Source: a virus. Taken from it: a stretch of DNA of 25,387 nt. The DNA lies in the IMG/VR virus record IMGVR_UViG_3300030102_006157, positions 70,561-95,947 of that record; one strand, written 5' to 3'. Positions 3,035-25,387 of this stretch are shown in pieces (position 1 is the stretch's first letter; each line of letters starts with the position of its first letter). A program made the position numbers and the translations under genes. The notes beneath the pieces are model-generated. The model searched no databases, was not told the origin of the DNA, and worked only from the letters and a program-made list of their open reading frames with translations.

Positions 3035-3694
3035 CTAATTTTTATTTTTGAGTAACGAGAGGAAATTTTTAAACTCACGAACTTGAGTCTCGTAGAGATT
3101 TGTGCGTGATGCCCTTTTAATTTCAGTCTCCATTTTTTCAATTGCTTTTCGCTCAATAATACCGTTATGCCAAACCCATTCAACACCTTCCATTATCCCA
3201 TTAACAAAAGCTCCAGGTGCAGATGGATCTTGTACTATGTCTATAGCATTAAGCATAAAATCGTCTTTTACATACATTGCGTTATTACGTCGCTCTAAAC
3301 TTCCCATACCACGAGTCGAAACGCCTAATTGAACACCGCCTTCGAGTAACCCTTTTACTATGTTCCCCATCGGAGTTTCCAATATTTGCGCTTTTCCCAT
3401 AACATCATTTCCCTTAAAATTAAGTTCATTGATCTTATGTGAAACCTTATCTAAATTTACAGTCGGCCCTTCTGGGTGATTCAATTCACCTACGGCACGA
3501 CCTTTAGAAACTTGTTCATCGGTATATTTACCAACTGCCTTTTCCATAACTGGCATTGGATAAATTCTACCATTTCTATTTTGCCCTTCAGCTTGAGCAA
3601 AAATACCTTCTATATTATAACACTTTTTACCGTTTTTACCTTCAGTGATAAAAACTTCTAAATTTGTATCGTTAAATTCTGAAATGAGTTTCAT
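3035..3694 (-). CDS. 21: Prohead maturation protease (gp21, serine peptidase)
   Basis: The 219-residue product is the T4 gp21-type serine protease that cleaves the capsid precursor, scaffold and core proteins after (L/I)-x-E during head maturation. GELNHPEG contains the likely catalytic His73 and GVSTRGMGSL the likely nucleophile Ser126. They are 53 residues apart, close to the spacing of His85 and Ser140 in T4. Asp152 in AIDIVQDPSAPGAF aligns by eye with a conserved Asp of the family and may complete the triad. L200-Y201-E202 near the C-terminus is a possible self-cleavage site. The start at 3694 has GAGGT just upstream, overlapping the stop of the preceding 84-residue gene, so the two are probably translationally coupled. 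Confidence 0.95.
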   Translation of the reverse strand: MKLISEFNDTNLEVFITEGKNGKKCYNIEGIFAQAEGQNRNGRIYPMPVMEKAVGKYTDEQVSKGRAVGELNHPEGPTVNLDKVSHKINELNFKGNDVMGKAQILETPMGNIVKGLLEGGVQLGVSTRGMGSLERRNNAMYVKDDFMLNAIDIVQDPSAPGAFVNGIMEGVEWVWHNGIIERKAIEKMETEIKRASRTNLYETQVREFKNFLSLLKNKN

Positions 3695-3696
3695 GA

Positions 3697-3951
3697 TTAC
3701 CTCGGATATGCTACAGGTGTAAATGATACGTTAGCACTACCAGCATATATTTGCTCGTCATGTTTTTTATTAAATATAATTGATTGACCTGTATTCATTA
3801 AAAAAGAATGTATAGTAGCACCATCTACCGTACATATCGTTACGGTCGTAGATGACGTACAACATGCATATACGTTTCTGGTAAACTCTAAATAAGTTCT
3901 ATTACCTGAACCGTTTGCCGTTGCTGCTTGGCCTGTTGGATTTATATGCAT
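3697..3951 (-). CDS. Small beta-rich protein between portal and protease, function unknown
   Basis: This encodes 84 residues, starting MHINPTGQAATANGSGNRTY and ending GSANVSFTPVAYPR. It has no membrane segment or signal peptide. The composition (Thr, Val, Ser, Gly, alternating hydrophobics) suggests a small beta sandwich, including a CC pair at residues ~30-31. I do not recognise a named family, though similar small proteins sit beside the head genes of marine T4-like phages as far as I recall. Its ATG overlaps the stop of the preceding 72-residue gene (TAATG), with AAGGA 8-12 bases upstream, and the protease gene follows after two bases, so it belongs to the head-assembly unit. A minor capsid, decoration or head-interior role is possible but is inferred only from position. 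Confidence 0.8.
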   Translation of the reverse strand: MHINPTGQAATANGSGNRTYLEFTRNVYACCTSSTTVTICTVDGATIHSFLMNTGQSIIFNKKHDEQIYAGSANVSFTPVAYPR

Positions 3952-4169
3952 TATTTCATTCCTTTATATTGTTTCATAAAAGTCATACCTGCTTTTTCAG
4001 CTTCTCTTTTACTTCTATAAGCATCAAGTCTATCACCATCTATGTAAACAACAAATTTACCCATTTCATTGTGTATTGTCATAGGAATTCTATTAATTCT
4101 TTTGGAGAATACTTTAGGTCCTATTGCCTTTCGTCCAGCAAGTTCTCTTAATTCAACAAAAGTTTTCAT
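3951..4169 (-). CDS. Small basic protein with capsid-targeting-like N-terminus, in gp68 position
   Basis: The product has 72 residues and is the first gene after the late promoter at 4187-4194, with AAGGA ahead of the ATG. It lies where T4 encodes prohead core protein gp68 (141 residues in T4), between gp67 and gp21. The first residues, MKTFVELRE, resemble the T4 capsid-targeting sequence MKTYQEFIAE found on T4 internal proteins. L7-R8-E9 fits the gp21 cleavage rule, so a mature 63-residue basic peptide is predicted. The rest contains GKFVVYIDGDRLDAYRSKRE, a compact beta-alpha pattern. I infer a prohead core or packaged internal protein; homology to T4 gp68 itself is not visible by eye. Confidence 0.82.
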   Translation of the reverse strand: MKTFVELRELAGRKAIGPKVFSKRINRIPMTIHNEMGKFVVYIDGDRLDAYRSKREAEKAGMTFMKQYKGMK

Positions 4170-4216: not shown

Positions 4217-4621
4217 TTAATTAGATACTTCTTCATTTCCGTCTTCTTCACTCCATTCTCCATCGTCTTCTGGTAATTCGTCGTCTTCCATTTCGACTCC
4301 CACATCAGAACTGGACTCTTCTTCGGTCTCTTCGTCTTCATAGCTACCCTCTGCCTCAGCGCTAACGTCTCCACCATCTTCCTCGTTATCGAGATCGAGC
4401 TCGAGTTGGTCTTCGTCTCCCGCTGTATCGTCTTCTTCAGCAGGTTGGCCATTGTAGAGTTGATCTGCAAGTTTTATTTTCTCCTGATCTAAAACGTCAT
4501 TTAATTTTACAGATATTACATCGCTAAAAATTTTATTTGCTTTATTATAATCTTGATCTAGCGAATGTTGTACTAAATCTCTCAAAGGGTTGTCTTCAGT
4601 TTCTACTTCTTGTTCAGCCAT
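4217..4621 (-). CDS. 67: Prohead core protein (gp67-like)
   Basis: This encodes 134 residues with two clear parts. Residues ~10-60 form an amphipathic helical segment containing NPLRDLVQHSLDQDYNKAN and the motif LDQEKIKLADQLY. Residues ~60-134 are an almost uninterrupted Asp/Glu-rich tail. T4 gp67 (80 residues) has the same design, a short helical start with an 'EEKIAIARNF'-like motif and a polyacidic tail, and it directly follows the portal gene as here. Gp67 is an essential core component needed for correct head shape and is processed by gp21. The longer acidic tail is the main difference from T4. The start at 4621 is supported by AGGAGT overlapping the portal stop codon. The family match rests on remembered T4 sequence. 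Confidence 0.82.
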   Translation of the reverse strand: MAEQEVETEDNPLRDLVQHSLDQDYNKANKIFSDVISVKLNDVLDQEKIKLADQLYNGQPAEEDDTAGDEDQLELDLDNEEDGGDVSAEAEGSYEDEETEEESSSDVGVEMEDDELPEDDGEWSEEDGNEEVSN

Positions 4622-8642: not shown

Positions 8643-10256
8643 TTAGAAATTAGAGTAATTGTTCCATTGTCCGTCATGATCAAATTCTATTACCCATTCT
8701 GGTTTTTTTACTTCTTCTTCAACGTATTGAGATCCATCGTCGATGTGACCAAACGGTACAACATCGTCTTCAATCTCTTTCATTTTTTGTTTAAAAATCA
8801 TTTCTTTTAAATTAATATCTGTCATATCTCCAAAATATTTACTTGTCACAAAATACCCGAATAATACGAAATTCATAATTAAATCATCATGATTACCATC
8901 AGAAGCTTCGTATGATTGTCCTTTTGAAATAAAAGTAGAAGCTTCAAATATAGTATTTTCATCTTGTATCATTATTTTATTATTTTCTAATAAATCTTTT
9001 AAAGCTGAACAACCTAATCTTTTCGTTTTACGAGTCATTTCAATACCCATTTTGTCTAGTCGAATAGCCGATTCTGAATGCATATTTTCGTATTCTAAAT
9101 CTTGATATAAACCGTTACAAACTAAAGAACCTTGGTCATTTGACTCAATTATTACATAAGATTTATTGTAGACGTTAGCCCATTTATAAATAATGTTGGG
9201 GAAGAGAATAGGTGAAATAGTATTATTGCGATACACAGCTACCTGTCTGAACGGGCGAACGCTAATATCGACTAAGTTAAAGGTAGAATAATCCTGGCCT
9301 CTTCCCTTTGCAACATCCACACACATAACATATTCGTGCTTATCTTTTGGTTGCTCATACATTTGAAGACTTCCGTTTTCGTATATTTTTTCTGGCGGAC
9401 GAGCTCTCATCTCCATCAAAGTCTGTGCGTTTATAAGAGTATCGCCTGTACCGAAAAAGGTATTACCGAATTCTTGATCAAATTGTAATTGAGAGGTATT
9501 TGATATCGTAGCTTCTTTCCATTTCTTATCTCTGCCAGGAACGTCCCACCAATCAACACGAAATGGCTTAAATTCATTTACGTTTTGTACAGCTCCCTGC
9601 CATATATTATAAAACGTATTACCAATACCATTAGCAGTAGAAGTTACGATTATCTTTGTATCTTTACCAGCAGAAACAACAGGATAGGTTGAAGTATAAA
9701 ATTCAGCTGCTCGTTCGACGAATGCAAATTCGTCTAAATATAATAAGTTAACAGAAAGACCACGAATAGAACTCCCGGAAGTAGCAGCAGCAATGATACG
9801 AGAATTATTTGAAAACTCAAGGGAACCTTTGTTAAGAGCTTTACTACCAGGCTGTAAGAAGAACGGAGTATTTTCCAACATGAGAGTAACACGAGAAAGC
9901 ATTTCTCTTGCAGTAGCTCCTTTATTTGCCAAAATCGCAATAGTCTTTTCTGAATTGAATAATGCAAACCATAGTAAGTAGGCGCAGGCACTGATTGACT
10001 TACCAGATTGACGACATGCGAGAACGACATTAAACCTATTCTCCTCGAATTGATTAAACATTTTCTTTTGATAAGGATATAATTTAAAAGGTACAAGACC
10101 TTGATCTAATGAAATAATTTTACAATATTTTTCTGCAAAATATGAAGGGCTTTTCATACATCTAGAATATTCCTCAACTAATTCAGCCGACCATTGTTGT
10201 ACAACACCGTCTTTTTTTACATTAGGATTCCCTAGATAACTCTGTACTTGGTGCAT
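8643..10256 (-). CDS. 17: Large terminase subunit (gp17), packaging ATPase and nuclease
   Basis: The 537-residue product is the T4 gp17-type packaging motor (T4: 610 residues). In the N-terminal ATPase domain, CRQSGKS at 81-87 is the Walker A motif, LLYLDE at 171-176 is Walker B with catalytic Glu176, and TSTANG at 205-210 is the coupling motif. The Lys86-Glu176 spacing of 90 equals that of T4. The C-terminal RNase-H-like nuclease has Asp314 in MCVDVAKGRG, Glu371 in IIESNDQG and Asp457 or Asp458 in GNHDDLIM. The first two are 57 apart, like Asp401 and Glu458 of T4. All catalytic residues are therefore present. The shorter length comes from the N-terminus. The start overlaps the end of gp16 by 35 bases, with AAGG upstream, which suggests coupled translation of the two subunits. 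Confidence 0.97.
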   Translation of the reverse strand: MHQVQSYLGNPNVKKDGVVQQWSAELVEEYSRCMKSPSYFAEKYCKIISLDQGLVPFKLYPYQKKMFNQFEENRFNVVLACRQSGKSISACAYLLWFALFNSEKTIAILANKGATAREMLSRVTLMLENTPFFLQPGSKALNKGSLEFSNNSRIIAAATSGSSIRGLSVNLLYLDEFAFVERAAEFYTSTYPVVSAGKDTKIIVTSTANGIGNTFYNIWQGAVQNVNEFKPFRVDWWDVPGRDKKWKEATISNTSQLQFDQEFGNTFFGTGDTLINAQTLMEMRARPPEKIYENGSLQMYEQPKDKHEYVMCVDVAKGRGQDYSTFNLVDISVRPFRQVAVYRNNTISPILFPNIIYKWANVYNKSYVIIESNDQGSLVCNGLYQDLEYENMHSESAIRLDKMGIEMTRKTKRLGCSALKDLLENNKIMIQDENTIFEASTFISKGQSYEASDGNHDDLIMNFVLFGYFVTSKYFGDMTDINLKEMIFKQKMKEIEDDVVPFGHIDDGSQYVEEEVKKPEWVIEFDHDGQWNNYSNF

Positions 10257-10569
10257 CTACAACCTTTTCATCTTTTTCTTTTAACAATTTTTGTAGATCA
10301 GCTGTTGATCCTAAAAATATATTATTTTGTTGATGTTCTACTTTTTTAAGTGGTTCTTCTAAATCTTTATTCTTTTTATTTAAATCCATCAATCTATCGT
10401 TAACGTCAGATAAATTCTTTATCATATTAGATAATACTTCAAATGCACGAGGATGCTCGGATTCTCTAGCAACTTGCATCATCGTTTCTAAACTATCTTT
10501 ACCTTTTTCTAACAGTTCATAATAAGTTTCACGTGAATATTCATAATCACTTTTAATTTTATCAGACAT
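10222..10569 (-). CDS. 16: Small terminase subunit (gp16)
   Basis: The product has 115 residues starting MSDKIKSDYEYSRETYYELL. It is almost entirely helical, with the segment ARESEHPRAFEVLSNMIKNL (~40-60) that I know from gp16 of marine T4-like phages, followed by a Lys/Asp/Leu-rich coiled coil. Gp16 (T4: 164 residues) recognises concatemeric DNA and stimulates the gp17 ATPase. I chose the ATG at 10569, one base after the stop of the preceding gene. An in-frame ATG at 10635 would add 22 residues that overlap the preceding gene and do not fit the family. Its end overlaps the gp17 start. Confidence 0.9.
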   Translation of the reverse strand: MSDKIKSDYEYSRETYYELLEKGKDSLETMMQVARESEHPRAFEVLSNMIKNLSDVNDRLMDLNKKNKDLEEPLKKVEHQQNNIFLGSTADLQKLLKEKDEKVVDAPSTELSRES

Positions 10570-10570
10570 T

Positions 10571-10948
10571 TTAACAGTTCCATCTACGTCTAGCAGCTTT
10601 ACCTCTTTCGCCTGTCCAGTTTTTTGAACGAGCACAAAATGATTTTCTTCTTGCAGCGGCTTTGCTACCAGGTTTTAATTTACTTGGAGGAGTAGTAACC
10701 GCTGTTTGAAGCTTACTTCCAGGATTTTTTCTTCTATATGCAGCAACCCCTTTCGCCGTCATTCCAGCGCCCTTAGAAACTGGTAAAAAATTACCACTTT
10801 TCTTGGAAGTACTTACCGGATTTGATTCGCGATCTTCATTTTTCGGAACGCAGTTAGGAACCATACGATTCCCTTTCTTTTTCATTCCAACTTGTTTGTG
10901 AGTTGACCAACAAGGCTTATCTTCTCTTATTTGTTTAAAAGTTTTCAT
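10571..10948 (-). CDS. Small, very basic Cys-containing protein with capsid-targeting-like N-terminus
   Basis: This encodes 125 residues between gp15 and gp16, where T4 has nothing. It starts MKTFKQIRE, similar to the T4 capsid-targeting sequence MKTYQEFIAE, and I7-R8-E9 followed by Asp fits the gp21 cleavage rule. Next comes CWSTHKQVGMKKKGNRMVPN, ending in a CVP motif, a short cassette I recall from many marine phage proteins. The C-terminal half (AYRRKNPGSKLQTAV, then RRKSFCARSKNWTGERGKAA, ending RRRWNC) resembles a small uncharacterised phage domain that I remember as DUF6321; this was not checked. The chain is rich in Lys/Arg, suggesting nucleic-acid binding. Its ATG overlaps the gp15 stop (TAATG). 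I infer a packaged head-interior protein or a terminase-associated DNA-binding protein, neither proven. Confidence 0.82.
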   Translation of the reverse strand: MKTFKQIREDKPCWSTHKQVGMKKKGNRMVPNCVPKNEDRESNPVSTSKKSGNFLPVSKGAGMTAKGVAAYRRKNPGSKLQTAVTTPPSKLKPGSKAAARRKSFCARSKNWTGERGKAARRRWNC

Positions 10949-11775
10949 TAGCTACCAAAACCTCCGTCACTGTCTTGACCAAAAATAGTCGTTGTAAATC
11001 CAAAGTCACTATCAGGACTACCGATAGTGGTTAATGGATTAGGATCGATTTGAACTGTTTGTAATCTAACGTCTGAATCTACTGTTAAACCACGTGATGA
11101 ATCTGTAAAACCAACTGTTGGATTAAATACCTTTGCAACTGATCTACGTATAATTTTAGATGTTGGAATGTTACCATAAAAATTTGTTCTCATTTCAAAA
11201 TCTAAAGTGTATATAATCGTTCTTCTGCTTCCTAAATCTCCTTCATAGTCATCAGCAAATCCAACACCAGCAATACTAATCGGTATGTCTTCTAAAAAAT
11301 TTGGATGCTCTGTCATAAATGGTTTTATAGTTAAAGTATATTGTGGATTAAATGTCGGCAATATCTGTTCTACTATCTGTAAAGCATCATCTTGATTTTT
11401 AGCGTACGCGTTCAATTGAAATCCAATAACGTATGGTACTGCTGTATTAAACTTTTTGCGACTTTGATTGTTTGCTGCGTTATTTGTAAAGTTATTTAAT
11501 TTAGATAGTTGTCGAGTAGTATCATATGCAATGTTTGTAATCTCAAAAGACATGCGAGGCAATTTTATAGCAACTCGAGTATCCTCTCTTAAATCAGGAT
11601 TTTCTCTTATTCTTTCTAAATATTTTGCCTTTGGTGCATAAGACAGTGGAACTTTAAGTTGACTTATAACTTTACCACTAGAATTTTTACGAATGACATA
11701 TATGTTATTAAAAAGTCTGCCAAATATAGCAACGCATTTTTTTGTCTTTTCATGATAGAAATGTGTACCAAACAT
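10948..11775 (-). CDS. 15: Tail terminator (completion) protein (gp15)
   Basis: The 275-residue product matches T4 gp15 (272 residues), the hexameric ring that caps the tube and sheath and joins the tail to the head. The signature runs through the first ~80 residues: a Phe-Tyr start, then VAIFGRLFNNIYVIR, LKVPLSYAPKAKYLERI and IKLPRMSFEI. The later QIVEQILPTFNPQYT segment closely matches the T4 QIVEQILPYFQPHF region as I remember it. The last ~60 residues are Asp/Gly-rich and probably flexible. The gene begins two bases after the stop of the 87-residue gene. The sister protein gp3 shares the fold, but the detailed match is to gp15, and so is the position. Confidence 0.92.
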   Translation of the reverse strand: MFGTHFYHEKTKKCVAIFGRLFNNIYVIRKNSSGKVISQLKVPLSYAPKAKYLERIRENPDLREDTRVAIKLPRMSFEITNIAYDTTRQLSKLNNFTNNAANNQSRKKFNTAVPYVIGFQLNAYAKNQDDALQIVEQILPTFNPQYTLTIKPFMTEHPNFLEDIPISIAGVGFADDYEGDLGSRRTIIYTLDFEMRTNFYGNIPTSKIIRRSVAKVFNPTVGFTDSSRGLTVDSDVRLQTVQIDPNPLTTIGSPDSDFGFTTTIFGQDSDGGFGS

Positions 11776-14661: not shown

Positions 14662-16470
14662 TTAACTGTAATTCGTTACAAGGTTAGCATAATAATTACT
14701 ACCATCGTAAAATACTGTTAAAATATCTATTGTATTTGTACTTGACAATGTTTTATTACCTCCGGCGTATAAAAAACTAGATGTTAAAGTTCTTCCTGTA
14801 CCGTTAGTGTTGATAATTAAAGTTAAACTTTGTCCAGCAACAGGATTATTAAAAGCGTTAAACGTTAAATTATTATTTAAATTAATCTTTTGAATATTCC
14901 CGTTTATAACATCTGGAGTAATCGTTCCGCCTGTTGTGCCTATGTCATGAATATCTTCGTTATATTGTAAATTAGTAATTCTTGTTTGACCGGTACCGTC
15001 TGGAACAAGTGCAATGTTTCCGTTTGATACTGAAACAATAGATTGTCCATTCACATCTAACTCTGCACTCAATTGTGGAGAACCATCATCGGTTAAAGCT
15101 CCCATTGCACCAATGTCACCTCTAACTTCAGTTGCACTTCTTCCTTCTAATCCAGATGCTGTAAATTTTGCATAATCACCACTTGTAACAGCTGCGTGAT
15201 TGATAACTACAGTATTAGTATCTGCAATACCAAATGTTAAAGTATTTTGTTTTGTAGCGTCTTGTGTATCGACATACGCCTTTACAGATTCTGCAGACGG
15301 AACATTAGTTGAAGTAGCACCCACAAAATCGTCAGCATCTAATATCGTTATAGTCGTATCAGTACCTGGTACAAATTTGCTACCGTCCCATTTTAATACA
15401 TCATTATTGCTTGGAGCGCTTGTTGTTATATCAACGTCCGATAATTTATCGATACTAGTATTACCTAAATTTGTATCGTTTAAATATTTATTGGTCGATC
15501 CTTCTGTTAATGCAGTATCTGTATCTGGAACTGATGTTATATTTGAAAAAACTGGAGCAACTGTTGCGTTAATGTGTGCTGTTAATGCAGCTGCATTAAT
15601 TCTTGCCATAGCAACTGTACCTGTTGCGAGTGCAGATGCATTAAGATTTGTTACATTAGCTCCATCTCCATCAGTTGCTAAAGCGCCAATTCCAGCAGGC
15701 GTTGGCGGACTATATACTAATTCAACGCCATTAGCATCTGCAGTTGCTGCAATGGCACCATTACCTGTTGCGGTACCTTCAGTACCGACAGTTACTTCAG
15801 TCGCTAATAAAAATTTTCCGCCAGGTGCACCGGTAGGAACTGAATGACCGTTTAAAGTACCGGCAATCGTAACATCACTATCTGCTGCAATATTATTAAC
15901 AAACAGATTATTAAACATTTTACTTGTACTACCGAGATCTCGAGAACTATCAACATCTGGAATTAAATCACCTACATCGATAATACCGGCAGACGGTAAG
16001 AATCCCATAACTAATATATCTGCACCGTTTGCTGGAGCACTTGTAAAAGTTAAAGTTGTACCTGATAAACTATAGTTTGCCGGCGTATTCTGAATAACAC
16101 CATCAACGAAAACAAAGATATGATTTCCACTTGAATATGTTGTACTTAACGTAAAAGCTGTACTGCCATTACCGGTTAATTCTTGACGATTAACGCTATT
16201 AACAACCGTACCACCTCCGAACTCTAATCCAGTTCCGTCAGCTTTAACTAAAACTCCTTTACCGTTATTACCGGTATATGCAGAAGGAGTATCCGCTAAA
16301 TCTAAAAAATCATCTGCAGCTGTTGCAAATGTTAAAGCTCCGCTTCCATCAGTCTGAATGAACTGACCAGCATTACCATCTTGAGTAGGATAATTGAGTG
16401 TTGCTGTCGATCCAGCTTGTGTATTTACGGCTAAACCATGTTTAGCAAGAAATTTTTTCTTTGTAGCCAT
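14662..16470 (-). CDS. Fibre-like structural protein with repeated beta modules
   Basis: The 602-residue product starts MATKKKFLAKHGLAVNTQAG, a start common on fibre proteins of marine T4-like phages. Residues ~55-85 hold a FLDLADTPSAYTGNNGKGVL module and ~115-157 a VDGVIQNTPANYSL beta module. Residues 178-194 (DLGSTSKMFNNLFVNNI) are the repeated fibre motif of such phages. From ~220 to ~480 the chain is Ala/Thr/Asp-rich with spaced 'DTDTALTEG'-type strand repeats. The last ~100 residues (NPVAGQSLTLIINTNGTGRT, then LTVFYDGSNYYANLV) match a C-terminal beta domain frequent in phage fibres. It has its own late promoter and AGGA ribosome-binding site. It may be the short tail fibre (gp12 position) or a long-fibre segment. 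Confidence 0.83.
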   Translation of the reverse strand: MATKKKFLAKHGLAVNTQAGSTATLNYPTQDGNAGQFIQTDGSGALTFATAADDFLDLADTPSAYTGNNGKGVLVKADGTGLEFGGGTVVNSVNRQELTGNGSTAFTLSTTYSSGNHIFVFVDGVIQNTPANYSLSGTTLTFTSAPANGADILVMGFLPSAGIIDVGDLIPDVDSSRDLGSTSKMFNNLFVNNIAADSDVTIAGTLNGHSVPTGAPGGKFLLATEVTVGTEGTATGNGAIAATADANGVELVYSPPTPAGIGALATDGDGANVTNLNASALATGTVAMARINAAALTAHINATVAPVFSNITSVPDTDTALTEGSTNKYLNDTNLGNTSIDKLSDVDITTSAPSNNDVLKWDGSKFVPGTDTTITILDADDFVGATSTNVPSAESVKAYVDTQDATKQNTLTFGIADTNTVVINHAAVTSGDYAKFTASGLEGRSATEVRGDIGAMGALTDDGSPQLSAELDVNGQSIVSVSNGNIALVPDGTGQTRITNLQYNEDIHDIGTTGGTITPDVINGNIQKINLNNNLTFNAFNNPVAGQSLTLIINTNGTGRTLTSSFLYAGGNKTLSSTNTIDILTVFYDGSNYYANLVTNYS

Positions 16471-16504
16471 TGTCCTGTTTCCCTATCCACAGTTAATTTA
16501 TAAC

Positions 16505-16512
16505 TATTTATA
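16505..16512 (-). promoter_or_regulatory. T4-type late promoter box TATAAATA for the 602-residue fibre gene
   Basis: The minus strand reads TATAAATA from 16512 to 16505, in the 53-base gap after the stop of the 470-residue fibre gene. The predicted leader is about 30 bases and contains AGGA before the ATG at 16470. Confidence 0.85.
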
Positions 16513-16523
16513 CATTTTGGATA

Positions 16524-17936
16524 TTAAAACGGGTGACTATTATCTGAAACTGGCCCAGTTCCTGAACTAGGAAAAAAGTTTAAACTATGATTACTTGCAC
16601 TTCTATCTTGAGGAAGAGTTGATGAACTAGTATTATCTTGGCAAGTTAATAATACAGTACCACTAATTGCTGTAAGTGGACTTGTAGGTACTGTAAAAGC
16701 TGATGTGTAAATAGCTGTTCCTTTTATAACTCGAACATTAGAAATGTATCCATTAAAGAAGTAAGATCCGGAAAAATAAGTATGATCTCCAACATGAAAT
16801 TTAAGTCCTCCAGCGCTGCCATAGTCCTTTATATCCCAGGGATTTGTTGAATTAGTTCCAGATAATGATCCATCATACCACATTTTATATGTTCCACTTT
16901 CTTTTGTAAGTGCTATATGACGCCAATTATTATATTGATTTCCAATAGATTGAGTGATTAAAGAGCCATTATTATAATCTCCAGCAATTAAATTTCCGTT
17001 ATCAATTTTCATTGAAACATATTGATTAATACCGACTTCCCATATATAATCAGGGTATGTTTGATTAACACTAGTATCAAAATTTGGTTTAATCCACATT
17101 TCTACAGTAAAGTCAGCTAAACCAAACTCAAAATCAGACGAGGGAGAAGCAGTAGTAAAATAATCATTTGTACCATCAAAATAAGTTGAACCATTGGGTA
17201 AAAAACTTAAAGTAAAAGCACTAGCTGATGATGTAGCTACATTAACACCATCAGATGCAGAAAATGTTAAACTAAAAGAACCAGCGTGTGCGCTATTTGT
17301 ACTTGGAGTTATTTTAAAAAATTTATTTGTTGTGAGAGTATTTTCTGCTAATGCGCTGTATGTACCACCAGATGTTGCACTCGATGTTACTGTGGCAGTT
17401 GAACCTATTGATCCTACACTTACCGCATATTTGTATTGTAATGTGACACCTTCAGGATCGGACGCTGATATTTCAATACTTACTGGAGTACCATCAGTAG
17501 CAAGTGAATATGAAGCATTACCAGCTGATGATATTGTTGGTTCTTGATTTGTTATAGTCGCAACTTTATACCACGCGTTATTTGATGTATTCCAAATATA
17601 TACTATACCAGTTGCGATAACAAGAGCTTGGTCGCCTGCAGCTGCAGTTGCTGGTAAATCATTTAAAGTATTATATGCTTTTACACCACCAACACTTTCT
17701 GCCGTTGGTGAGCCTCCACCAGATACTTTTTGAAATTCGTGCGCACCGGTAGAACTTCTTTTTAAAATAATTTTGTCAGTAGATGTACCAAGATGAATTT
17801 CTTCAGCAATTAATTTTCTATCATTACCACTGACATCTCTAACCATCAAGTTACCAGAACTATCAATAAGTTTTGTATTATTTAAAAATACTGGATCTGT
17901 GCCTGATCTATTTGCTCTATCTCTGGCAATACTCAT
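16524..17936 (-). CDS. LamG-domain tail fibre/adhesin, shortest paralogue
   Basis: The 470 residues have three parts. Residues 1-125 are the N-terminal module shared with the two other complete fibres here: MSIARDRANRSGTDP, then TDKIILKRSSTGAHEFQ, ending AWYKVATITN. Residues ~128-246 are an Ig/cadherin-like domain (ISSAGNASYSLATDGTP, SASDPEG, FSASDGVNVA). Residues ~250-430 are one LamG lectin-like domain, opening STYFDGTNDYF, with DFTVEMWIKP and the closing FFNGYISNVRVIKGTAIYT strand. The protein ends NSHPF. The N-module presumably attaches the fibre and the LamG domain presumably binds glycan or protein on the host. The start, 12 bases after the upstream stop, has only AGAAAG ahead of it, so coupling to the upstream gene is likely. 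This junction is a near copy of that at 23691-23704. Confidence 0.85.
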   Translation of the reverse strand: MSIARDRANRSGTDPVFLNNTKLIDSSGNLMVRDVSGNDRKLIAEEIHLGTSTDKIILKRSSTGAHEFQKVSGGGSPTAESVGGVKAYNTLNDLPATAAAGDQALVIATGIVYIWNTSNNAWYKVATITNQEPTISSAGNASYSLATDGTPVSIEISASDPEGVTLQYKYAVSVGSIGSTATVTSSATSGGTYSALAENTLTTNKFFKITPSTNSAHAGSFSLTFSASDGVNVATSSASAFTLSFLPNGSTYFDGTNDYFTTASPSSDFEFGLADFTVEMWIKPNFDTSVNQTYPDYIWEVGINQYVSMKIDNGNLIAGDYNNGSLITQSIGNQYNNWRHIALTKESGTYKMWYDGSLSGTNSTNPWDIKDYGSAGGLKFHVGDHTYFSGSYFFNGYISNVRVIKGTAIYTSAFTVPTSPLTAISGTVLLTCQDNTSSSTLPQDRSASNHSLNFFPSSGTGPVSDNSHPF

Positions 17937-18094
17937 TGTATATACTTTCTAAAATGGATTAAGTCTCGTAGCAACACAATTATTTACAGGTATTATCGTG
18001 CAATTTCCACTAGCATCAATTATTTGATTGCTGTGTTGAGCAGTTAATAACTTTGTATTTGTTATAGCAGTTAATGCTGAAGTTGGTACAGTAA
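17911..18094. repeat. Copy 1 of the duplicated fibre-gene junction
   Basis: This stretch aligns without gaps to 23666-23849 (offset 5755). It spans the 5' end of the MSIARDR fibre gene, the 12-base spacer and the last ~145 bases of the upstream LamG gene. The first 51 bases have two mismatches; most differences beyond are at third codon positions. Confidence 0.85.
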
Positions 18095-21000
18095 AGTTAC
18101 CGGTATATACTGGTGATCCAACTACTAATCTAAAATTAGATATATGACCAGTAAGAACCGCGTATTGTGCATAACCACCACCAATTGCAAGTCTATTATA
18201 AGTAATATTTGTAGAATTTGTAAAGGTTGAAGTAAATGGCATATGTGTGCCATTAAAATATAATTTTATTTCATTATTATATCTAACAATAGCCATATGA
18301 TACCATGTTAAAGGATTTATTATGGCACTACCACTTGTTTGCATAAAACCACTTCCAGAAGTAATATTAGATACATCAAACTTAGCACCATCAGCTCTAG
18401 TAGTACCTTTATTATGATATATTGTAAAACCATTGGCTGCACTAGTGCCTCCAGAAGAGGGAAATGGTACATAACTACTTGATGAAAATGACCAGTAACC
18501 ATTGTATTCATAAATTTCTTGATTGGCACTACCAACACCAAAAAGACCTTTATCATAAAACCAATATTCTATACAAAAATCACCAGAACCTAATTCTATA
18601 TTACTATCATCTACGTAAATGTAACGATTATCATAATCATCGCATTCAATAGAGCCATTAGCTTGTGAAAATGGAGATACATAACTACCTAATGGATTAC
18701 CAGATTGAATTAAAGTGTTACTTGCTGAACTATTATCTTTGAGATTAGCTGATTGAGCACCATATTGTGCAAAATTATAAGTACCATTCTTTGTTATAGA
18801 TATTGAATTATCAGATTCATCTACTATTATACCACTAGCATTACCCCTAATTAAAGTAAACAATTCAGTTTCTGAAGCAGTAGGATTGCTTACATTAGTT
18901 GTTGATTCATAATTTCCACCAGTTTTAGTAATATTTCTAGGTGGTGTAAATGCACCAGTATAAACTGCTTTTGAACAAAATCTTAATTGAGACATCCAAA
19001 TTCCGCCATCAAGACCTTGACCGCCACCGGCATGTGTACCATTAGTTTTAAATTTTCCATCAGTTATATTGTAAGAACCACCATTTGTAGTTGAAAGTAA
19101 TTCTACACCATCTATATAGACTTTTACATTTCCGCCTGTTCTAACCATAGCAAAATGATACCACTGATCTATATTTAATCCAACACCAGCAGTACCATGA
19201 ACGGTTCCACCACCACCTCCAAAAGCTGAACCACTACTTACTATACCAAGACTAGTAGGATTAGTACCACTTCCTGCGGAATAACCAAATCGATAACCAT
19301 TTTCCATATAATCAAACATAAGAGGATAAGCTACATCACCATGAGATTCAAATCTATAATAAAATTCAATAGTAAAATCACCAGTTCCTACTACAAGATT
19401 TGAGTCATTAATAGCAAGATTAGCATTTTTATTATAAGCCCATCCACAACCACCAGTTTCATATTTTGGCGCATTTTCTTTCAGTGCTAAAAATTTAGTA
19501 TTTGTTCCACCAACAGCACTTAAATCAGTAGTTGGTACAGTAAAATTAGTAGCAAATGGAGTTTCCGCACTTCCGGCTGCATTACCATTTGCAGTGATAG
19601 TGTAACCATTACTACTTGCATCAGTAATACTACCAGTACTATTTTGACAGGTTAATAGTTGTGTTCCGGATATGGCAGTTAAAGGAGAAGTTGGTGGTGT
19701 AAATCCAGAAGCAGCATAAACAGCACTGCCTGTAACAATTCTAAAATTGGAAATATAACCAGTCAATAGATGTGTAGTGTTATCCATATATCTGGATCCT
19801 AATCTTATAGTACTTCCAGTCAGATTTACTGTTGCGGTTGCACTACCTTGTTGAACACCATTTTTATAAAGATAAAAAACATTTGAAATTCGTTGAAGAG
19901 CAACATGATACCAAACACCATTAGACCCAATCGCACCTCCAGAAAAACCAATCTGTGATGATCCTCCACCGTGTGTTACAAAAAACTTATCTATTGCTAC
20001 AACAATTCCACCATCAGCACCACTAGCTTGACAAGTACTAAAATATCCATCATAACTGCCTGAAGTAGTGTGATATATCCAACCCTCCATTGTAAAATCT
20101 CCAGTACCTGAAAGAGGATTTGTCGTATCTATATAATCTCCACTACCATCAAAAGAAGTTGAAGCACCAGTTTCTGGATTAAGTGTGTAAGCAAGTTGTC
20201 CTTTAACAATTCTAAAATTAGAAATATATCCTGTAAATTCTTTGGATCCAGAATGCTTATCAGCAATTCTCATTGTAGTCGCCGTAATATTTGCGGTACT
20301 ACCAGTATAACTTCCAACTTCAACACCATTATGAAAAAGTTGTACTTTTCCACTACTATCTCTCGTAAAAGCTATGTGATACCAAGTAGTTTGATCTAAA
20401 GAGCCAACACTATATGTCAATTGTGTTTCACTATCAATTTGTGCTCTTATATCTCCATTTTTAAAAGTAACTCTTATATTTTCACTACCAATATCATAAA
20501 GAAATATTGTAGAAGAACCATTAGTATCAAAATCGGGTATATAAAAACACTCTATAGAAAATGCACCCGTACCAAAAAGAAAAGATGCATTATCTGTAGC
20601 TTCTATACGATCACCAGAACCATCAAAATAAATAGAACCACCCACATCAAATCCTAAAGTAAATGAAGATGCACTTGAGTTAGCTACATTAACACCATCA
20701 GATGCAGAGAATGTTAAACTAAAAGTACCCGCATGTGCAGTATTAGTTGAAGGTGTAACTTTAAAATATTTATTTGATGTAAGTGTATTTGCGTTAATTG
20801 CACTATATGTTCCACCAGAAGTAGAACTTGAAGTCACTGTTGCGGTACTACCAAGAGATCCGCTTGTAACTTGATACTTATATTGAAGAGCAAGGCCTTC
20901 TGGATCTGTTGCCGCTATTTCAACTATAACCGGTGTTCCATCTGTCGCAAAGCTATACGAAGCATTACCTGCTGATGATATCGTAGGAGATGCATTTGTT

Positions 21001-21383
21001 ACTGTTGCTATTTTATACCAACCTGTACCATTATAAATCATTAAGTTATTATTTGAAGTTACAAATTTTGTATCACCTGCACTATTACCAGTTAATGGTA
21101 AATCACCTGGATTTGTAACTACACCAGTTCCAACTTGTGTAGTTTCAGTTGTTGAACCATCAGTAGTTTGAAATTGAACTTTACCTGTAGAACTATCTCT
21201 TTTTACAATAACTCTATCGGAACCAGTACCAACTTGTAATTCTTCTGCAAAAACTTTTTTAAGTGTAGTACCATCTTGAGCAGTAACTTTTATATCGTTA
21301 CTACCTTCAAGAGATAAACGCACATCACTAATGTTAATCGGATCACTACCTGATCTATTTGCTCTATCTCTTGACTTACCCAT
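17949..21383 (-). CDS. Large tail fibre/adhesin with four LamG domains
   Basis: The 1144-residue product is the largest in the window. Residues 1-125 are the shared N-terminal module (MGKSRDRANRSGSDP, DRVIVKRDSSTGKVQFQ, GWYKIATVTN). Residues 128-245 are the Ig/cadherin-like domain (ATDPEG, FSASDGVNVA). Four LamG-type domains follow at about 250-400 (YFDGSGDRIEATDN), 410-610 (SFDGSGDYIDTTNP), 650-815 (LVVGTGDFTIEFYYR) and 910-1100 (GSGDFCIEYWFYDKG). Each ends in a 'GYISNFRIV.G...YT'-like strand. The C-terminus contains KLLTAQHSNQIIDASGNCTI and ends LNPF, shared with the gene at the right edge. It is the first gene behind the promoter at 21401-21408 and has a clear AAGGA. It is probably a long or side tail fibre whose lectin domains contact the host surface. 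Confidence 0.87.
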   Translation of the reverse strand: MGKSRDRANRSGSDPINISDVRLSLEGSNDIKVTAQDGTTLKKVFAEELQVGTGSDRVIVKRDSSTGKVQFQTTDGSTTETTQVGTGVVTNPGDLPLTGNSAGDTKFVTSNNNLMIYNGTGWYKIATVTNASPTISSAGNASYSFATDGTPVIVEIAATDPEGLALQYKYQVTSGSLGSTATVTSSSTSGGTYSAINANTLTSNKYFKVTPSTNTAHAGTFSLTFSASDGVNVANSSASSFTLGFDVGGSIYFDGSGDRIEATDNASFLFGTGAFSIECFYIPDFDTNGSSTIFLYDIGSENIRVTFKNGDIRAQIDSETQLTYSVGSLDQTTWYHIAFTRDSSGKVQLFHNGVEVGSYTGSTANITATTMRIADKHSGSKEFTGYISNFRIVKGQLAYTLNPETGASTSFDGSGDYIDTTNPLSGTGDFTMEGWIYHTTSGSYDGYFSTCQASGADGGIVVAIDKFFVTHGGGSSQIGFSGGAIGSNGVWYHVALQRISNVFYLYKNGVQQGSATATVNLTGSTIRLGSRYMDNTTHLLTGYISNFRIVTGSAVYAASGFTPPTSPLTAISGTQLLTCQNSTGSITDASSNGYTITANGNAAGSAETPFATNFTVPTTDLSAVGGTNTKFLALKENAPKYETGGCGWAYNKNANLAINDSNLVVGTGDFTIEFYYRFESHGDVAYPLMFDYMENGYRFGYSAGSGTNPTSLGIVSSGSAFGGGGGTVHGTAGVGLNIDQWYHFAMVRTGGNVKVYIDGVELLSTTNGGSYNITDGKFKTNGTHAGGGQGLDGGIWMSQLRFCSKAVYTGAFTPPRNITKTGGNYESTTNVSNPTASETELFTLIRGNASGIIVDESDNSISITKNGTYNFAQYGAQSANLKDNSSASNTLIQSGNPLGSYVSPFSQANGSIECDDYDNRYIYVDDSNIELGSGDFCIEYWFYDKGLFGVGSANQEIYEYNGYWSFSSSSYVPFPSSGGTSAANGFTIYHNKGTTRADGAKFDVSNITSGSGFMQTSGSAIINPLTWYHMAIVRYNNEIKLYFNGTHMPFTSTFTNSTNITYNRLAIGGGYAQYAVLTGHISNFRLVVGSPVYTGNFTVPTSALTAITNTKLLTAQHSNQIIDASGNCTIIPVNNCVATRLNPF
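18115..18158. repeat. 44-base perfect repeat inside LamG coding, copy 1
   Basis: These 44 bases are identical to 24512-24555 in the same strand and reading frame. They encode the final strand of a LamG domain (GHISNFRLVVGS region). They form one edge of the cassette difference between the two genes and are a plausible site for recombination. Confidence 0.85.
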
Positions 21384-21400
21384 GCTTTTTCCTTTTTATG

Positions 21401-21408
21401 TATTTATA
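21401..21408 (-). promoter_or_regulatory. T4-type late promoter box TATAAATA for the 1144-residue fibre gene
   Basis: The minus strand reads TATAAATA from 21408 to 21401, in the 28-base gap between fibre genes. The ATG at 21383 follows an AAGGA ribosome-binding site. The unit contains the 1144- and 470-residue fibre genes. Confidence 0.85.
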
Positions 21409-21411
21409 ACA

Positions 21412-23691
21412 TTAACCAATATAAGTTGCAGAACCTGTTGATGAATAAACATGATAAGTATATCCACCGCTCGTATGAACACTATCTCCTTGACTATTTT
21501 TTGCACCACCTGCATATCTAATAATTACTATACCGCTACCACCTGCTCCTGCTGCACCGTCACCTGCTCTACCACCGCCTGCGCCTCCACCGCCACCAGT
21601 ATTTGCGGCACCGTCTTGACCTACCCAAGTTTGTCCTGAACTAAAAGTTCCATCACCACCGCCACCTTGTCCACCATTGTGCGTAGCATTAGCGCCATCA
21701 TATTTTGATCCAGCTCCACCGCCTCCATAATAACCACTGTCTCCTGTAGAAGTTGCTGTAGCCCATGCTGAATAAGTATTCACACCATCACCGCCATGTT
21801 GGTCAGTAGCATTAGCACCGGCTCCACCTCCGCCACCGCCGCCATAACCGCCCCAATGACCAAATCCATTAAAACCTGATACTTCTACACCATCAATACC
21901 ATAGCCTTGTCCTGGAATACTTTTACCTGATGTGCCACCGTTAATAGCATAACCGCCACCACCATTAGCACCATTACCACCAACTTCTGTGGCTGCTGAA
22001 TTATTTCCTGCACCTCCGCCACCACCTCCTCTTGCTAATGCTAAATAAGATGTAAGAACTTTAGTATTAGCAGCTGCGCCATTATTCGCAGTTACAGTAT
22101 AATTGTTAGAACTTGCGTCGGTAATTGCACCAGTACTATTTTGACAAGTTAATAAGATAGTATCTGAATCATTTGTAAAAGCAGCAGATGGTCTAGTAAA
22201 ATCCGCACCGTATCTAGCTGTACTTGAAACTCTTACGTTTGACAAATATCCATGCATCGGTTCATAACCATCAGAATTTTCACCAATAGTAATTAAACTT
22301 GCTGAAGGAGTTGCGGCCATATTTGTTGCTGAATTGTTATTATTACCTGCTACATTCTTTCCATCTATATACATACGAAAGTTTTGGCCTTCTTTAACCC
22401 AAGCTAAATGAACCCATCTATTAGAAACTATATGATGCGCTGCATCATTAGTAAATAAATCACTAGTAGCAGCGCTGTAGACATACATTGCAGTAAGATT
22501 ACTAGAGACTTTTCTTCTACCAAATATTATTCTTGTGCCTGAATTAAATTCTAAAATATTTTGTTCATCACCTGGTGCTTCATCATCATAAAATGCCCAT
22601 GCTTCAACAGTAAAGTTTGCAAGAGAATTAATAATATTAGTTGAAGAAATAGTAAGATTATCATTATTTCCATCAAATTGTGTTGAACCAGCAAAAACAG
22701 AACCGGCTCCATTTACTTGTACAGAACTTGCAGTACCGGGATTACCTCCTCCTCTAGTTGTTGATGCAGCTATACCTGCTCCACCTGCCCCTACTACTAT
22801 ATCTAATTGTGTTCCAGGACTATAAGTGTATGTGCCTGATAAAATAACACCGCCTCCACCTCCAGCTCCAGATTGATAATCGGTAAAACCAGCTTTACCA
22901 CCGCCGCCGCCTCCACCAACAACTAATATTTCAATATCATGTGAAAATGCTAGAGTAAAAGCCGAAGCACTTGAATTTGCGACATTTACACCATCTGACG
23001 CATGAAATGTTAAGCTAAAAGCTCCAGAATAAGAACTATTTGTTGATGGTGTAATTTTAAAATATTTATTTGATGTTAAAGTGTTTTCAGCTAAAGCACT
23101 ATAAGTTCCGCCAGATGTTGCACTACTCGTAACAGCAGCAGTAGCTCCACCTCCATTTGTTAGTGAACCTGATGTTACTGTATACTTATACTGTAAAGGT
23201 ACTCCTTCAGGATCCGACGCAGTAACTTCTATACTTACAGGTGTTCCATCAGTAGCAAAAGAATAACTTGCATTACCAGCAGAAGATATCGTTGGAGTCG
23301 CATTTGTTATTTCAGCAACTTTATACCAACCAGATTTGTATACGTACATAAAATTATTAGCAGTAACAAGAGCCATTACACCTTCGTCCGCAGATGCTGG
23401 TAAATCACTTGTATTTGCGTAAATTGTTAAACCACCAGTTGGTTGATCAGCAGGTGAGCCTCCACCAGATACTGTTTGTAAATTAACTTTTCCTGTAGAA
23501 CTATCTCTCTTAATGATAATTTTATCATTATCATCATCACCAATTTGCACTTCAGATGTGATTAATCTTTTTGGATTATCAGATGTATCTTGTACAACAA
23601 GATCATCACTAGCATTAGAAGATATTTTACTCGCACCAATAACGAGTGGATCAGATCCTACTCTATTTGCTCTATCTCTAGCAATACTCAT
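21412..23691 (-). CDS. Tail fibre/adhesin with a LamG domain nested in a glycine-rich domain
   Basis: The 759-residue product starts with the shared N-module (1-125; MSIARDRANRVGSDP, IIIKRDSSTGKVNLQ, GWYKVAEITN) and the Ig/cadherin-like domain (128-250; TASDPEG, HASDGVNVA). Residues 253-335 begin a glycine-rich domain: IEILVVGGGGGGG, then GVILSGTYTYSPGTQLDIVV and GAGGAG. At ~336 a complete LamG domain interrupts it (STQFDGNNDNLTIS ... GYLSNVRVSSTARYG ... TDASSNNYTVTANN, to ~545). The glycine-rich part resumes at ~552 (ARGGGGGGAG) and runs in GGNG/GGGG blocks to GGSGIVIIRYAGG at 717-729, with a closing SGGYTYHVYSSTGSATY strand pair. Glycine-rich sandwiches of this kind form receptor-binding tips in T-even gp38 adhesins; the same role is inferred here. 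The start has AGAAAG and follows the upstream stop by 12 bases. Confidence 0.87.
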   Translation of the reverse strand: MSIARDRANRVGSDPLVIGASKISSNASDDLVVQDTSDNPKRLITSEVQIGDDDNDKIIIKRDSSTGKVNLQTVSGGGSPADQPTGGLTIYANTSDLPASADEGVMALVTANNFMYVYKSGWYKVAEITNATPTISSAGNASYSFATDGTPVSIEVTASDPEGVPLQYKYTVTSGSLTNGGGATAAVTSSATSGGTYSALAENTLTSNKYFKITPSTNSSYSGAFSLTFHASDGVNVANSSASAFTLAFSHDIEILVVGGGGGGGKAGFTDYQSGAGGGGGVILSGTYTYSPGTQLDIVVGAGGAGIAASTTRGGGNPGTASSVQVNGAGSVFAGSTQFDGNNDNLTISSTNIINSLANFTVEAWAFYDDEAPGDEQNILEFNSGTRIIFGRRKVSSNLTAMYVYSAATSDLFTNDAAHHIVSNRWVHLAWVKEGQNFRMYIDGKNVAGNNNNSATNMAATPSASLITIGENSDGYEPMHGYLSNVRVSSTARYGADFTRPSAAFTNDSDTILLTCQNSTGAITDASSNNYTVTANNGAAANTKVLTSYLALARGGGGGGAGNNSAATEVGGNGANGGGGYAINGGTSGKSIPGQGYGIDGVEVSGFNGFGHWGGYGGGGGGGAGANATDQHGGDGVNTYSAWATATSTGDSGYYGGGGAGSKYDGANATHNGGQGGGGDGTFSSGQTWVGQDGAANTGGGGGAGGGRAGDGAAGAGGSGIVIIRYAGGAKNSQGDSVHTSGGYTYHVYSSTGSATYIG

Positions 23692-23849
23692 TCTATATAC
23701 TTTCTAAAATGGATTAATTCTTGTAGCGACACAATTATTATTCGATATTATTGTACAATTTCCACTGGCATCGATTATTTGGTTACTATGTTGAGCGGTT
23801 AATAACTTTGTATTTGTTATTGCGGTCAATGGCGAAGTTGGTACAGTAA
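23666..23849. repeat. Copy 2 of the duplicated fibre-gene junction
   Basis: This is the partner of 17911-18094: the same gene start, the same 12-base spacer, the same stop and the same C-terminal coding segment (AQHSNQIIDASGNCTII). It marks duplication of a two-gene fibre unit. Confidence 0.85.
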
Positions 23850-25387
23850 TGTAATCTCTAAAAGGAGCGACTGAAGAACCAGTAGCACTACCACTTGTAT
23901 CAACCGTATGATTAACTGAACTTGCATCAGTTGGAGCTCCACTACTATTTTGACAAGTTAATAACTTTGTATTTGTTATCGCGGTTAATGGAGTATTTGT
24001 TACATTAAAGTTAGAAGTATAAACAGCAGTACCAACTACTAATCTAAGATTTGAAATATATCCATCAAAATCGGCGCCAGTATTTGAATTATGTTTTCCT
24101 ATAAAAGCTGTATTTCCTGTATAATTGTTAGTATCAACGTATACTTCATCATCTTTCACACCATTAAGAAATAATCTTGTAACACCACCACTTCTAACAA
24201 TAGCACAATGGTGCCAACCTCCAGTTGATATTCCATCAGCAGTAATTCTATAACCACTGTTTGCATATAATCTAAGATTACCAGACGTATTAAAATTTAC
24301 CATCAAACCTGCTGCATCATTTTCTCTTGTATCATATATAACACCACCATTAGTGAAAGCATCTGCATTAACCCAAAATTCTAATGTAAAATCATTAGTA
24401 CCAATAACTAAATCAGTAGAAGTACTTCCCGAACTTGGAACTAATAAATTATCTCCGCTACCATCGAAAATAGTTGAACCACCACCGCCGCTACTTGGTG
24501 TATAAACACCAGATCCAACTACTAATCTAAAATTAGATATATGACCAGTAAGAACAGCATATTGTGCATAACTGCCACCAATTGCAAGTCTATCGAAAGT
24601 ATAATTTGTATTAACCGAATGAGCTGAAGCAAATGGATAATATACACCATCAAAATATACTTTTATTTCACCGCTTTCTCTAATAATTGCCATATGATAC
24701 CATCTTAAAGGATCTATTATAGCTTTATTAACTGTTGAAAACCAACCATTACCACTACTATTTGTACTTTGAACTTGGAAAGATCCACCTGCTGAAGATG
24801 TGCTACCCTTTTGATGAGTCATTCCAAAAGCAGTTAATCCAGTAGAAGCATTTCCACCAGAATGGCTACTTACATGAAACGGTATTGCACCGGTACCACT
24901 ACTTGATCCAAATGCCCAATAACCATTATATGAATAAACTTCAGGATCAGTAGTTCCATCACCATATAAACCTTTATCCATAAACCAATATTCTATACAA
25001 AAATCATTAGTACCTAATACTATATCACTATCATCTACATAGATATAGCGATTATCATAATCGTCACATTCAATAGAACCACCAGTGCCTTGTGCAAATG
25101 GACTTGCATAACTACCTCTTGGACTACCAGATGGAGTTAAAGTATTAGCTGCTGAACTGTTATCTATGAGATTTGGTTGATTTATACCATATTGCGCTTG
25201 ATTAACAGAGCTAGCTATTGTTACTGATATCCCGTTTTGACTATTGTCAGTTACACTAGATGTATAGTAATCTTTACCTCTCTGTATTAATAACAATTCT
25301 GTTTCTGCAGCAGTAGGAACACTTACATTAGTTAATGATGTATAGTCACCACCACCTTGTTCTTTTACTGTATTTATATATTCACCA
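23704..25387 (-). CDS. LamG-domain tail fibre/adhesin, 5'-truncated by window edge
   Basis: The frame is open from the stop at 23704 to the right edge (about 561 residues visible). The TTG at 25296 is not a real start: the codons before it continue the family sequence (GGDYTSLTNVSVPTAAETEL), matching residues ~822-840 of the 1144-residue fibre. Two LamG domains are visible. The first (YVDDSDIVLGTNDFCIEYWF ... LTGHISNFRLVVGSGVYT) corresponds to the fourth LamG of the 1144-residue protein. The second (STIFDGSGDNLLVPSSGSTS ... GYISNLRLVVGTAVYTS) is an extra cassette. The C-terminus again holds KLLTAQHSNQIIDASGNCTI and ends INPF. The missing part probably carries the RDRANR N-module, Ig-like domain and further LamG domains, by analogy. 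Confidence 0.85.
   Translation of the reverse strand, partial: GEYINTVKEQGGGDYTSLTNVSVPTAAETELLLIQRGKDYYTSSVTDNSQNGISVTIASSVNQAQYGINQPNLIDNSSAANTLTPSGSPRGSYASPFAQGTGGSIECDDYDNRYIYVDDSDIVLGTNDFCIEYWFMDKGLYGDGTTDPEVYSYNGYWAFGSSSGTGAIPFHVSSHSGGNASTGLTAFGMTHQKGSTSSAGGSFQVQSTNSSGNGWFSTVNKAIIDPLRWYHMAIIRESGEIKVYFDGVYYPFASAHSVNTNYTFDRLAIGGSYAQYAVLTGHISNFRLVVGSGVYTPSSGGGGSTIFDGSGDNLLVPSSGSTSTDLVIGTNDFTLEFWVNADAFTNGGVIYDTRENDAAGLMVNFNTSGNLRLYANSGYRITADGISTGGWHHCAIVRSGGVTRLFLNGVKDDEVYVDTNNYTGNTAFIGKHNSNTGADFDGYISNLRLVVGTAVYTSNFNVTNTPLTAITNTKLLTCQNSSGAPTDASSVNHTVDTSGSATGSSVAPFRDYITVPTSPLTAITNTKLLTAQHSNQIIDASGNCTIISNNNCVATRINPF
24512..24555. repeat. 44-base perfect repeat inside LamG coding, copy 2
   Basis: These bases are identical to 18115-18158. 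Relative to the junction repeat (offset 5755), the offset here is 6397, so exactly 642 bases are extra in this gene between the two anchors. Confidence 0.85.

Follow-up and report, generated by a model that had tools for sequence, protein, structure and literature searches.

A basic two-module protein with a capsid-targeting-like leader, encoded between gp15 and gp16, as a candidate internal head protein of a marine T4-like phage

The 125-residue protein studied here is encoded on the minus strand of the window, by which we mean the whole 25,387-nucleotide stretch that was analyzed; it comes from a virus record of 99,422 bp whose G+C content is 33%. It bears a leader like the T4 capsid-targeting sequence (CTS) and is probably one of the internal proteins of the head of this marine T4-like phage, processed by gp21 and ejected with the DNA; we file it as a variant of the T4 internal-protein/capsid-targeting system. 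At prohead assembly, Phe4 and Ile7 would dock its first nine residues to the gp22 scaffolding core. gp21 would then probably cut after Glu9, releasing a very basic protein of two modules (a CW...NC hairpin followed by DUF6321) that would remain among the packaged DNA and exit with it at infection. Counting this one, the genome encodes at least eight proteins with such leaders. The leader likely directs packaging into the head, the residues present make cleavage after Glu9 plausible, and a DNA-contacting or host-directed role of the mature protein after ejection is a natural guess by analogy.

Gene, modules, and genomic setting

The gene is an ATG-initiated open reading frame at positions 10571 to 10948 (minus strand), with its stop codon at 10571 to 10573; the call rests on the sequence as read and on the homologs found. 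The first-pass annotation had described a Lys/Arg-rich protein with Cys motifs that starts MKTFKQIRE, and the reading frame is as described, with the strand now given as minus. There are 32 Lys and Arg residues versus 6 Asp and Glu (pI 11.1), four Cys (Cys13, Cys33, Cys105, and Cys125), and an Asp at residue 10. The ATG overlaps the stop codon of gp15 in the sequence TAATG (gp15, the tail sheath stabilizer by Pfam and PHROG, at 10948 to 11775, minus). A Shine-Dalgarno-like GGAGG, read from the sequence at 10961 to 10965 (minus) within the 3' end of gp15, lies 12 nt upstream of the ATG. On the other side, gp16 (terminase small subunit, 115 aa, 10222 to 10569, minus) begins at 10569, one base past the stop of the 125-aa gene, with the start MSDKIK as in relatives. 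T4 had been said to lack a gene at this place, and its annotation indeed has none between genes 15 and 16.

The minus-strand order is gp13, gp14, gp15, the 125-aa gene, gp16, gp17, gp18, gp19, and gp20, then genes for a 134-aa acidic protein, a 72-aa protein, and an 84-aa protein, and finally gp21, gp22, and gp23. Pfam cut-offs were passed by gp15, gp17, gp21, gp22, and gp23; gp16 scored 20.1 bits, under the 25-bit cut-off, and matched the PHROG terminase small subunit at 5e-37. Both a gp21-type prohead protease, the expected processing enzyme (3035 to 3694, minus; Pfam and PHROG, Peptidase_S77 at 1.3e-38), and a gp22 scaffold (T4_CASP, 4.6e-66) are present. The major capsid protein gp23 (483 to 1868, minus; Pfam) has GMLQE/AAP at residues 51 to 58, the place of T4 FLTE/AE. 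The 134-aa acidic protein that follows gp20 (4217 to 4621, minus) is gp67-like by position and composition only, and the 72-aa protein (3951 to 4169, minus) occupies the T4 gp68 position between it and gp21. The gene at 3697 to 3951 (minus), located after the 72-aa gene and before gp21, encodes the 84-aa protein, which has only a weak match (3e-7) to a PHROG of unknown function; S-SCSM1 encodes two small virion proteins at the same place (52116 to 52669).

Behind the leader (codons 1 to 9, positions 10922 to 10948, minus), the N-terminal half of the protein holds a CW...KQVG...VPNCVP module. Its CW...NC portion, residues 12 to 36 (10841 to 10915, minus), is a predicted beta hairpin in the model and recurs in homologs. 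The C-terminal half contains DUF6321 (PF19846; residues 59 to 114, positions 10607 to 10774, minus), which scored 43.6 bits against a curated cut-off of 28.5, and the conserved block continues to the C-terminal RRRWNC. An AlphaFold model of moderate quality (mean pLDDT 72.8, pTM 0.46) predicts residues 1 to 9 (pLDDT below 50) and 39 to 46 to be unstructured, a hairpin at 17 to 35 (strands 17 to 25 and 28 to 35), and three helices in DUF6321; this layout fits a removable leader ahead of two small modules. Checked for a known DNA-binding or zinc-ribbon fold, the protein gave no match in a PDB sequence search with E values up to 10. Foldseek with the pTM 0.46 model found no significant PDB relative, only short hairpin matches (best E value, 3.8), and those to defensin hairpins were rejected as chance.

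The CW and DUF6321 modules combine differently in other phage proteins, and relatives of DUF6321 occur in 354 phage records, mostly from cyanophages; we found no paper on DUF6321 in the open-licence literature. In L054 (MKTLKDFIAEQKPCW) and isolate S-RS29 (MKTFNQFQAECWK; MKTFNQFQAECWKTHKKVGMK), relatives that match the window protein over its full length have the T4-type leader spacing; compared with them, the window leader has one residue fewer before I-x-E (MKTFKQ-IREDKPCW). The leader of the NMNAT of phage Melnitz (MKKFSEIIEARGD) is intermediate between MKTFKDIREARGD and the T4 form. A CW match also lies inside this 650-aa NMNAT-type protein (L305, 5017 to 6969), indicating that the module travels as part of an enzyme as well.

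DUF6321 also exists without a leader, as in Pelagibacter phage HTVC028P, which has a 36-kb genome. When 80 DUF6321 loci were sorted by leader and by T4-like markers, with NMNAT and DUF6267 counted among the markers, 14 had both, 3 a leader without a marker, 14 a marker without a leader, and 49 neither. Two of these leaders were doubtful (L013 and L041), and without them the table gave a P value of 1e-4. Since most of these markers belong to the cargo cluster, we repeated the comparison over whole contigs, using 15 leader-bearing contigs and 24 contigs chosen out of 63 leaderless loci, most of these contigs being fragments. DUF6267 was found on 11 of the 15 and on 0 of the 24, and Gp23 was found only on the 160-kb leader contig.

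The leader within the genome and in related phages

The leader of the 125-aa protein is beyond chance. It had been claimed that two proteins of the window share MKTF-x2-(L/I)-R-E and that such sharing is unlikely by chance, and both statements hold. The second leader is MKTFVELRE, at the start of the 72-aa protein (4143 to 4169, minus). A degenerate DNA pattern for the leader has exactly two matches in the window and 0 in 100 dinucleotide shuffles. Across the 99,422-bp record, MKTF-x2-[IL]-R-E starts 3 of 139 greedy gene calls, namely the 125-aa, 72-aa, and 81-aa genes, the third of these copies lying outside the window (record positions 15820 to 16065). Shuffled N termini gave a mean of 0.057 expected matches with a maximum of 2 in 1,000 shuffles, and the leader followed 0 of the 783 internal Met codons of the record. 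A T4-type leader starts four further genes at record positions 21160 to 25067 (0.2 expected), which encode a DUF5824 protein, a cytidylyltransferase-like protein, a DUF6267 protein, and a 271-aa protein. With MLNFKQYVEG (record 19554 to 19781), which fits the union of both patterns, the total comes to eight leader genes versus 0.59 expected. The leader genes at record positions 15820 to 25067, outside the window, form a cluster that encodes the 81-aa, 75-aa, DUF5824, cytidylyltransferase-like, DUF6267, and 271-aa proteins; a 133-aa gene in the same cluster has LSFKNFTQED at an internal position.

For the 72-aa protein, 80 loci were picked by gp21 alone, and 68 of them have a relative of its body. 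Positions were counted in 66 of these, after the removal of two truncated sequences and a one-position shift of five that have an additional residue. Phe4 is present in 65, Leu, Ile, or Val at residue 7 in all 66, Arg8 in all 66, and Glu9 in 59, being missing in 7; at residue 10, Leu prevails (26 of 35 strict matches). The residues expected to serve docking are thus held more firmly than the residue expected to serve cleavage.

As judged from sequence comparison, the gp15-gp16 slot is a site where related phages swap cargo behind a kept leader. Among 20 relatives of gp15 with at least 75% identity, one or more leader ORFs occupy the slot in 14, for a total of 17 ORFs with 16 distinct sequences. 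Over the next 60 residues, composition-corrected and strict BLAST grouping divides this cargo into five groups (two under permissive settings), and certain groups have modules in common further on, such as DUF6321. There are thus diverse bodies behind one kept leader, as in the T4 system. Four of the 20 loci show no leader gene before gp16 or the contig end is reached, and of the 18 relatives in which the slot is fully seen, several hold unrelated genes or none. Three kinds of slot ORF start MKTFEEIRG or MKTFEEIRR, that is, without Glu9, and in L106 and L107 a body nearly that of the window protein starts MKTFKEACW, the whole IRE being gone. In both, the slot also holds, ahead of this ortholog, a 67-aa ORF predicted to be membrane-like (L106, 3828+200; L107, 1957+200). 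Sixty more distant gp15 relatives showed, among the matches listed, one leader-like ATG (L140) within 1.5 kb after gp15; this near absence indicates that use of the slot is a trait of the present clade. In distant relatives (L134 to L136, L150, L154 to L158, and others, among the matches listed), the place is taken by a nuclease-like ORF (VKIVDGDTVDVDIDLGFGVW...) or by fibre-like ORFs.

It had been suggested that related phages be searched for a wider family with this leader, and many otherwise unrelated proteins do carry this N terminus. A scan of IMG/VR at the DNA level, with MKTFxxI[R/S]E written as a degenerate pattern and no other criterion, yielded at least 80 loci. In all 80 of the leader loci listed, an in-frame stop lies within 43 codons upstream of the ATG (median, 5), as for real starts. 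Relatives of the 72-aa protein account for 36 of those listed, and the remainder fall into 18 further groups (19 in total under strict settings, 16 under permissive grouping); six of the loci listed carry NMNAT-type enzymes. A canonical T4-like gene was present at 47 of the 80 listed, only NMNAT/DUF6267-cluster genes at 25, and neither at 8. Residue 10 is Ala in 30 of the 80. The search pattern fixed the amino acids of the leader and only the codon spread is informative: there were 65 distinct 27-mers among the 80 loci listed, with six codons used for Arg8 and three for Ile7.

Leaders and modules in published virion proteomes

In T4, ten residues of CTS are enough for packaging, with residues 4 and 7 important for targeting and residues 8 and 10 for processing (PMC9026906). 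The internal proteins of T-even phages are diverse, and the CTS alone is conserved (PMC3012670). That leaders of this kind, and the CW and DUF6321 modules, are present in virions is supported by published proteomes of other phages. In cyanophage S-CREM2, for which 52 virion and 167 other proteins were taken (PMC10665884), a strict T4-type leader is found on 5 of the 52 virion proteins versus 1 of the 167 others (P = 0.0032), the total of 6 comparing with 0.09 expected by shuffling. The strict pattern was modelled on T4 IPIII and written after the S-CREM2 N termini had been seen. The five virion proteins are gp6, a SAM hydrolase (MKDFDSFLEE); gp13, detected by one peptide (MKDLHSFLTE); gp14, a kinase (MKRFDAFLTE); gp136, encoded between gp16 and gp17 (MQTFSMFFSE); and gp154, a cytidylyltransferase (MKNFSSFLTE). 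The strict match outside the virion is gp175. A looser first pattern (5 of 52 virion versus 9 of 167 other proteins, P = 0.22) was dropped as too loose. S-CREM2 gp12, a virion protein annotated as a Cas9-like endonuclease (L100, 7704 to 10313, minus), has LRFASFMAEAA at residues 17 to 27, a T4-type leader after a short extension, and its true start may be downstream.

The N termini of S-SCSM1 were unseen when the pattern was written. Of its proteins, we used the 48 marked as virion proteins in the record (the text of the paper, PMC9602691, says 45), and the strict leader occurs on 1 of these versus 1 of 234 others, which is not significant alone (P = 0.31); pooled with S-CREM2, the P value is 0.001. 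The virion match is an NMNAT (MKSFLQFLKE), and the other is gp30, encoded between gp16 and gp17 (MKTFKQFMSE) and undetected in the virion. The IRE form of the leader was found on 0 of the 52 S-CREM2 virion proteins and 0 of the 282 S-SCSM1 proteins, so that these proteomes test the T4-type dialect only. NMNAT-type enzymes have T4-type leaders in S-CREM2, S-SCSM1, S-SM2, S-ShM2, and ACG-2014f, those of S-SM2 (MKSFFQFLSE) and S-ShM2 (MKKFSTFISE) being on members of cytidylyltransferase family GC190. NMNAT or cytidylyltransferase was detected in the virions of S-CREM2 (PMC10665884) and S-SCSM1 (PMC9602691), and family GC190 in that of S-SM1 (PMC3037559).

Profiles of both halves of the 125-aa protein were also searched against the S-CREM2 and S-SCSM1 proteomes. 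DUF6321 matched S-CREM2 gp137 and S-SCSM1 gp29, and CW matched S-CREM2 gp160 and again S-SCSM1 gp29; all three are virion proteins (chance of about 0.009 if independent), and gp137 and gp29 are encoded between gp16 and gp17. None of the three has an N-terminal leader, which suggests that the modules enter these virions by another way.

Alternative readings, known systems, and implications

It is possible, although we consider it rather unlikely, that the leader only docks its bearers to the scaffolding core and stays uncut, these proteins being core or structural components instead of processed, injected cargo. The firmer conservation of residues 4, 7, and 8 than of Glu9 in the 72-aa family, its prevalent Leu10, and the slot ORFs with IRG, IRR, or no IRE would all fit this, as would the gp68 position of the 72-aa protein, gp68 being listed as uncleaved in T4 (PMC9026906). 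Against this, Glu9 is nevertheless kept in most of the 72-aa orthologs, and the Ala that follows Glu9 at many of the scanned loci resembles T4 FIAE/A and gp23 FLTE/A. The earlier view of a common targeting and processing signal is upheld in part. Targeting is favored by the leader on many unrelated proteins and by the leaders and modules in the virions of two cyanophages, whereas processing after Glu9 is a match of sequence only, with Asp10 in the window protein itself and Glu9 missing from some 72-aa orthologs and several slot ORFs. Likewise, the residues I7-R8-E9 of the proposed gp21 rule are present, but with Glu at 9 and then Asp.

Alternatively, the shared N terminus might be inherited by common descent or serve, as a nucleotide sequence, to start translation, short genes having been duplicated and recombined together with their start regions. 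Slot cassettes were clearly swapped along with their starts, and an A+T-rich phage such as this one often has starts rich in Lys and AAA; the synonymous variation of the leader codons, its presence on unrelated and far-apart genes, and the T4-type leader that the same NMNAT-type enzyme carries elsewhere make this explanation improbable. We likewise give little credence to the idea that the protein is unpackaged and acts inside the cell as a helper of DNA packaging or terminase, which would account for its place between gp15 and gp16. Its strongly basic composition, the tight overlap with gp15 and gp16, and the DUF6321 proteins that adjoin gp17 in S-CRM01 and gp16/gp17 in S-CREM2 and S-SCSM1 speak for such a role. 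Yet the terminase-adjacent DUF6321 proteins of S-CREM2 and S-SCSM1 are in the virion, while the terminase small subunits of these phages are not among the listed virion proteins, and several of the fully seen slots hold unrelated genes or none.

Several known systems come close to the window protein. With T4 IPI, IPII, and IPIII (Straboviridae), the window protein shares a short leader, hydrophobic residues 4 and 7, an aliphatic-x-Glu sequence as a possible cleavage site, a small basic body, varied bodies behind a kept leader, and gp21 and gp22 in the same genome. It differs in that the T4 CTS has an aromatic residue at 7 and Glu at 10, whereas the window protein has Ile7, a nearly fixed Arg8, Glu9, and Asp10; its CW and DUF6321 body has no Pfam or PHROG match to any internal-protein family, and its gene lies in the gp15-gp16 slot and not at the T4 ip loci. 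It shares four Cys and the KSFCAR and RRRWNC blocks with the DUF6321 proteins of marine phages, but in several cyanophages DUF6321 stands at the end of a protein of 387 to 516 aa, whereas here it is in a stand-alone protein with a leader. The virion enzymes of cyanomyoviruses (NMNAT/cytidylyltransferase, kinase, and SAM hydrolase) have the same kind of N-terminal leader on known folds, whereas the window protein has no enzymatic signature in Pfam. T4 Alt is likewise a nonstructural protein loaded into the head and ejected (PMC9026906); this large ADP-ribosyltransferase undergoes processing at both termini, and the window body shows no resemblance to it by family search.

More tentatively, and with somewhat less confidence than an even chance would warrant, one portable head-import code, with interchangeable dialects FxxF[IL]xE and FxxIRE, may load sets of host-directed cargo in marine T4-like phages, the gp15-gp16 slot and the NMNAT/DUF6267 cluster being islands of cargo exchange. 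The cargo would then perhaps comprise NMNAT-type enzymes, kinase, SAM hydrolase, Cas9-like nuclease, DUF6267, DUF5824, and small Cys-paired basic proteins. If so, injected proteins could be listed from the genome alone by their first ten residues, and the leader may predict, among the many uncharacterized genes of T4-like phages from the ocean, those whose products enter the host as infection begins. Nonstructural enzymes are present in cyanophage virions, and their entry route goes unexplained in the available text of PMC10665884 and PMC9602691; a T4-type leader on virion enzymes offers a testable mechanism for it. In the accessible open-licence literature, we found no paper tying a capsid-targeting sequence to cyanophages, and one review touches both without connecting them.

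Elsewhere in the window, at 16524 to 23691 and beyond (minus), MSIARDRANRSGTDP, MGKSRDRANRSGSDP, and MSIARDRANRVGSDP form the N termini of three large proteins, and MGIAKNRAERIGST that of a fourth, which extends past the window. These four are paralogous, tail-fibre-like proteins, and their common N terminus is perhaps an attachment motif.
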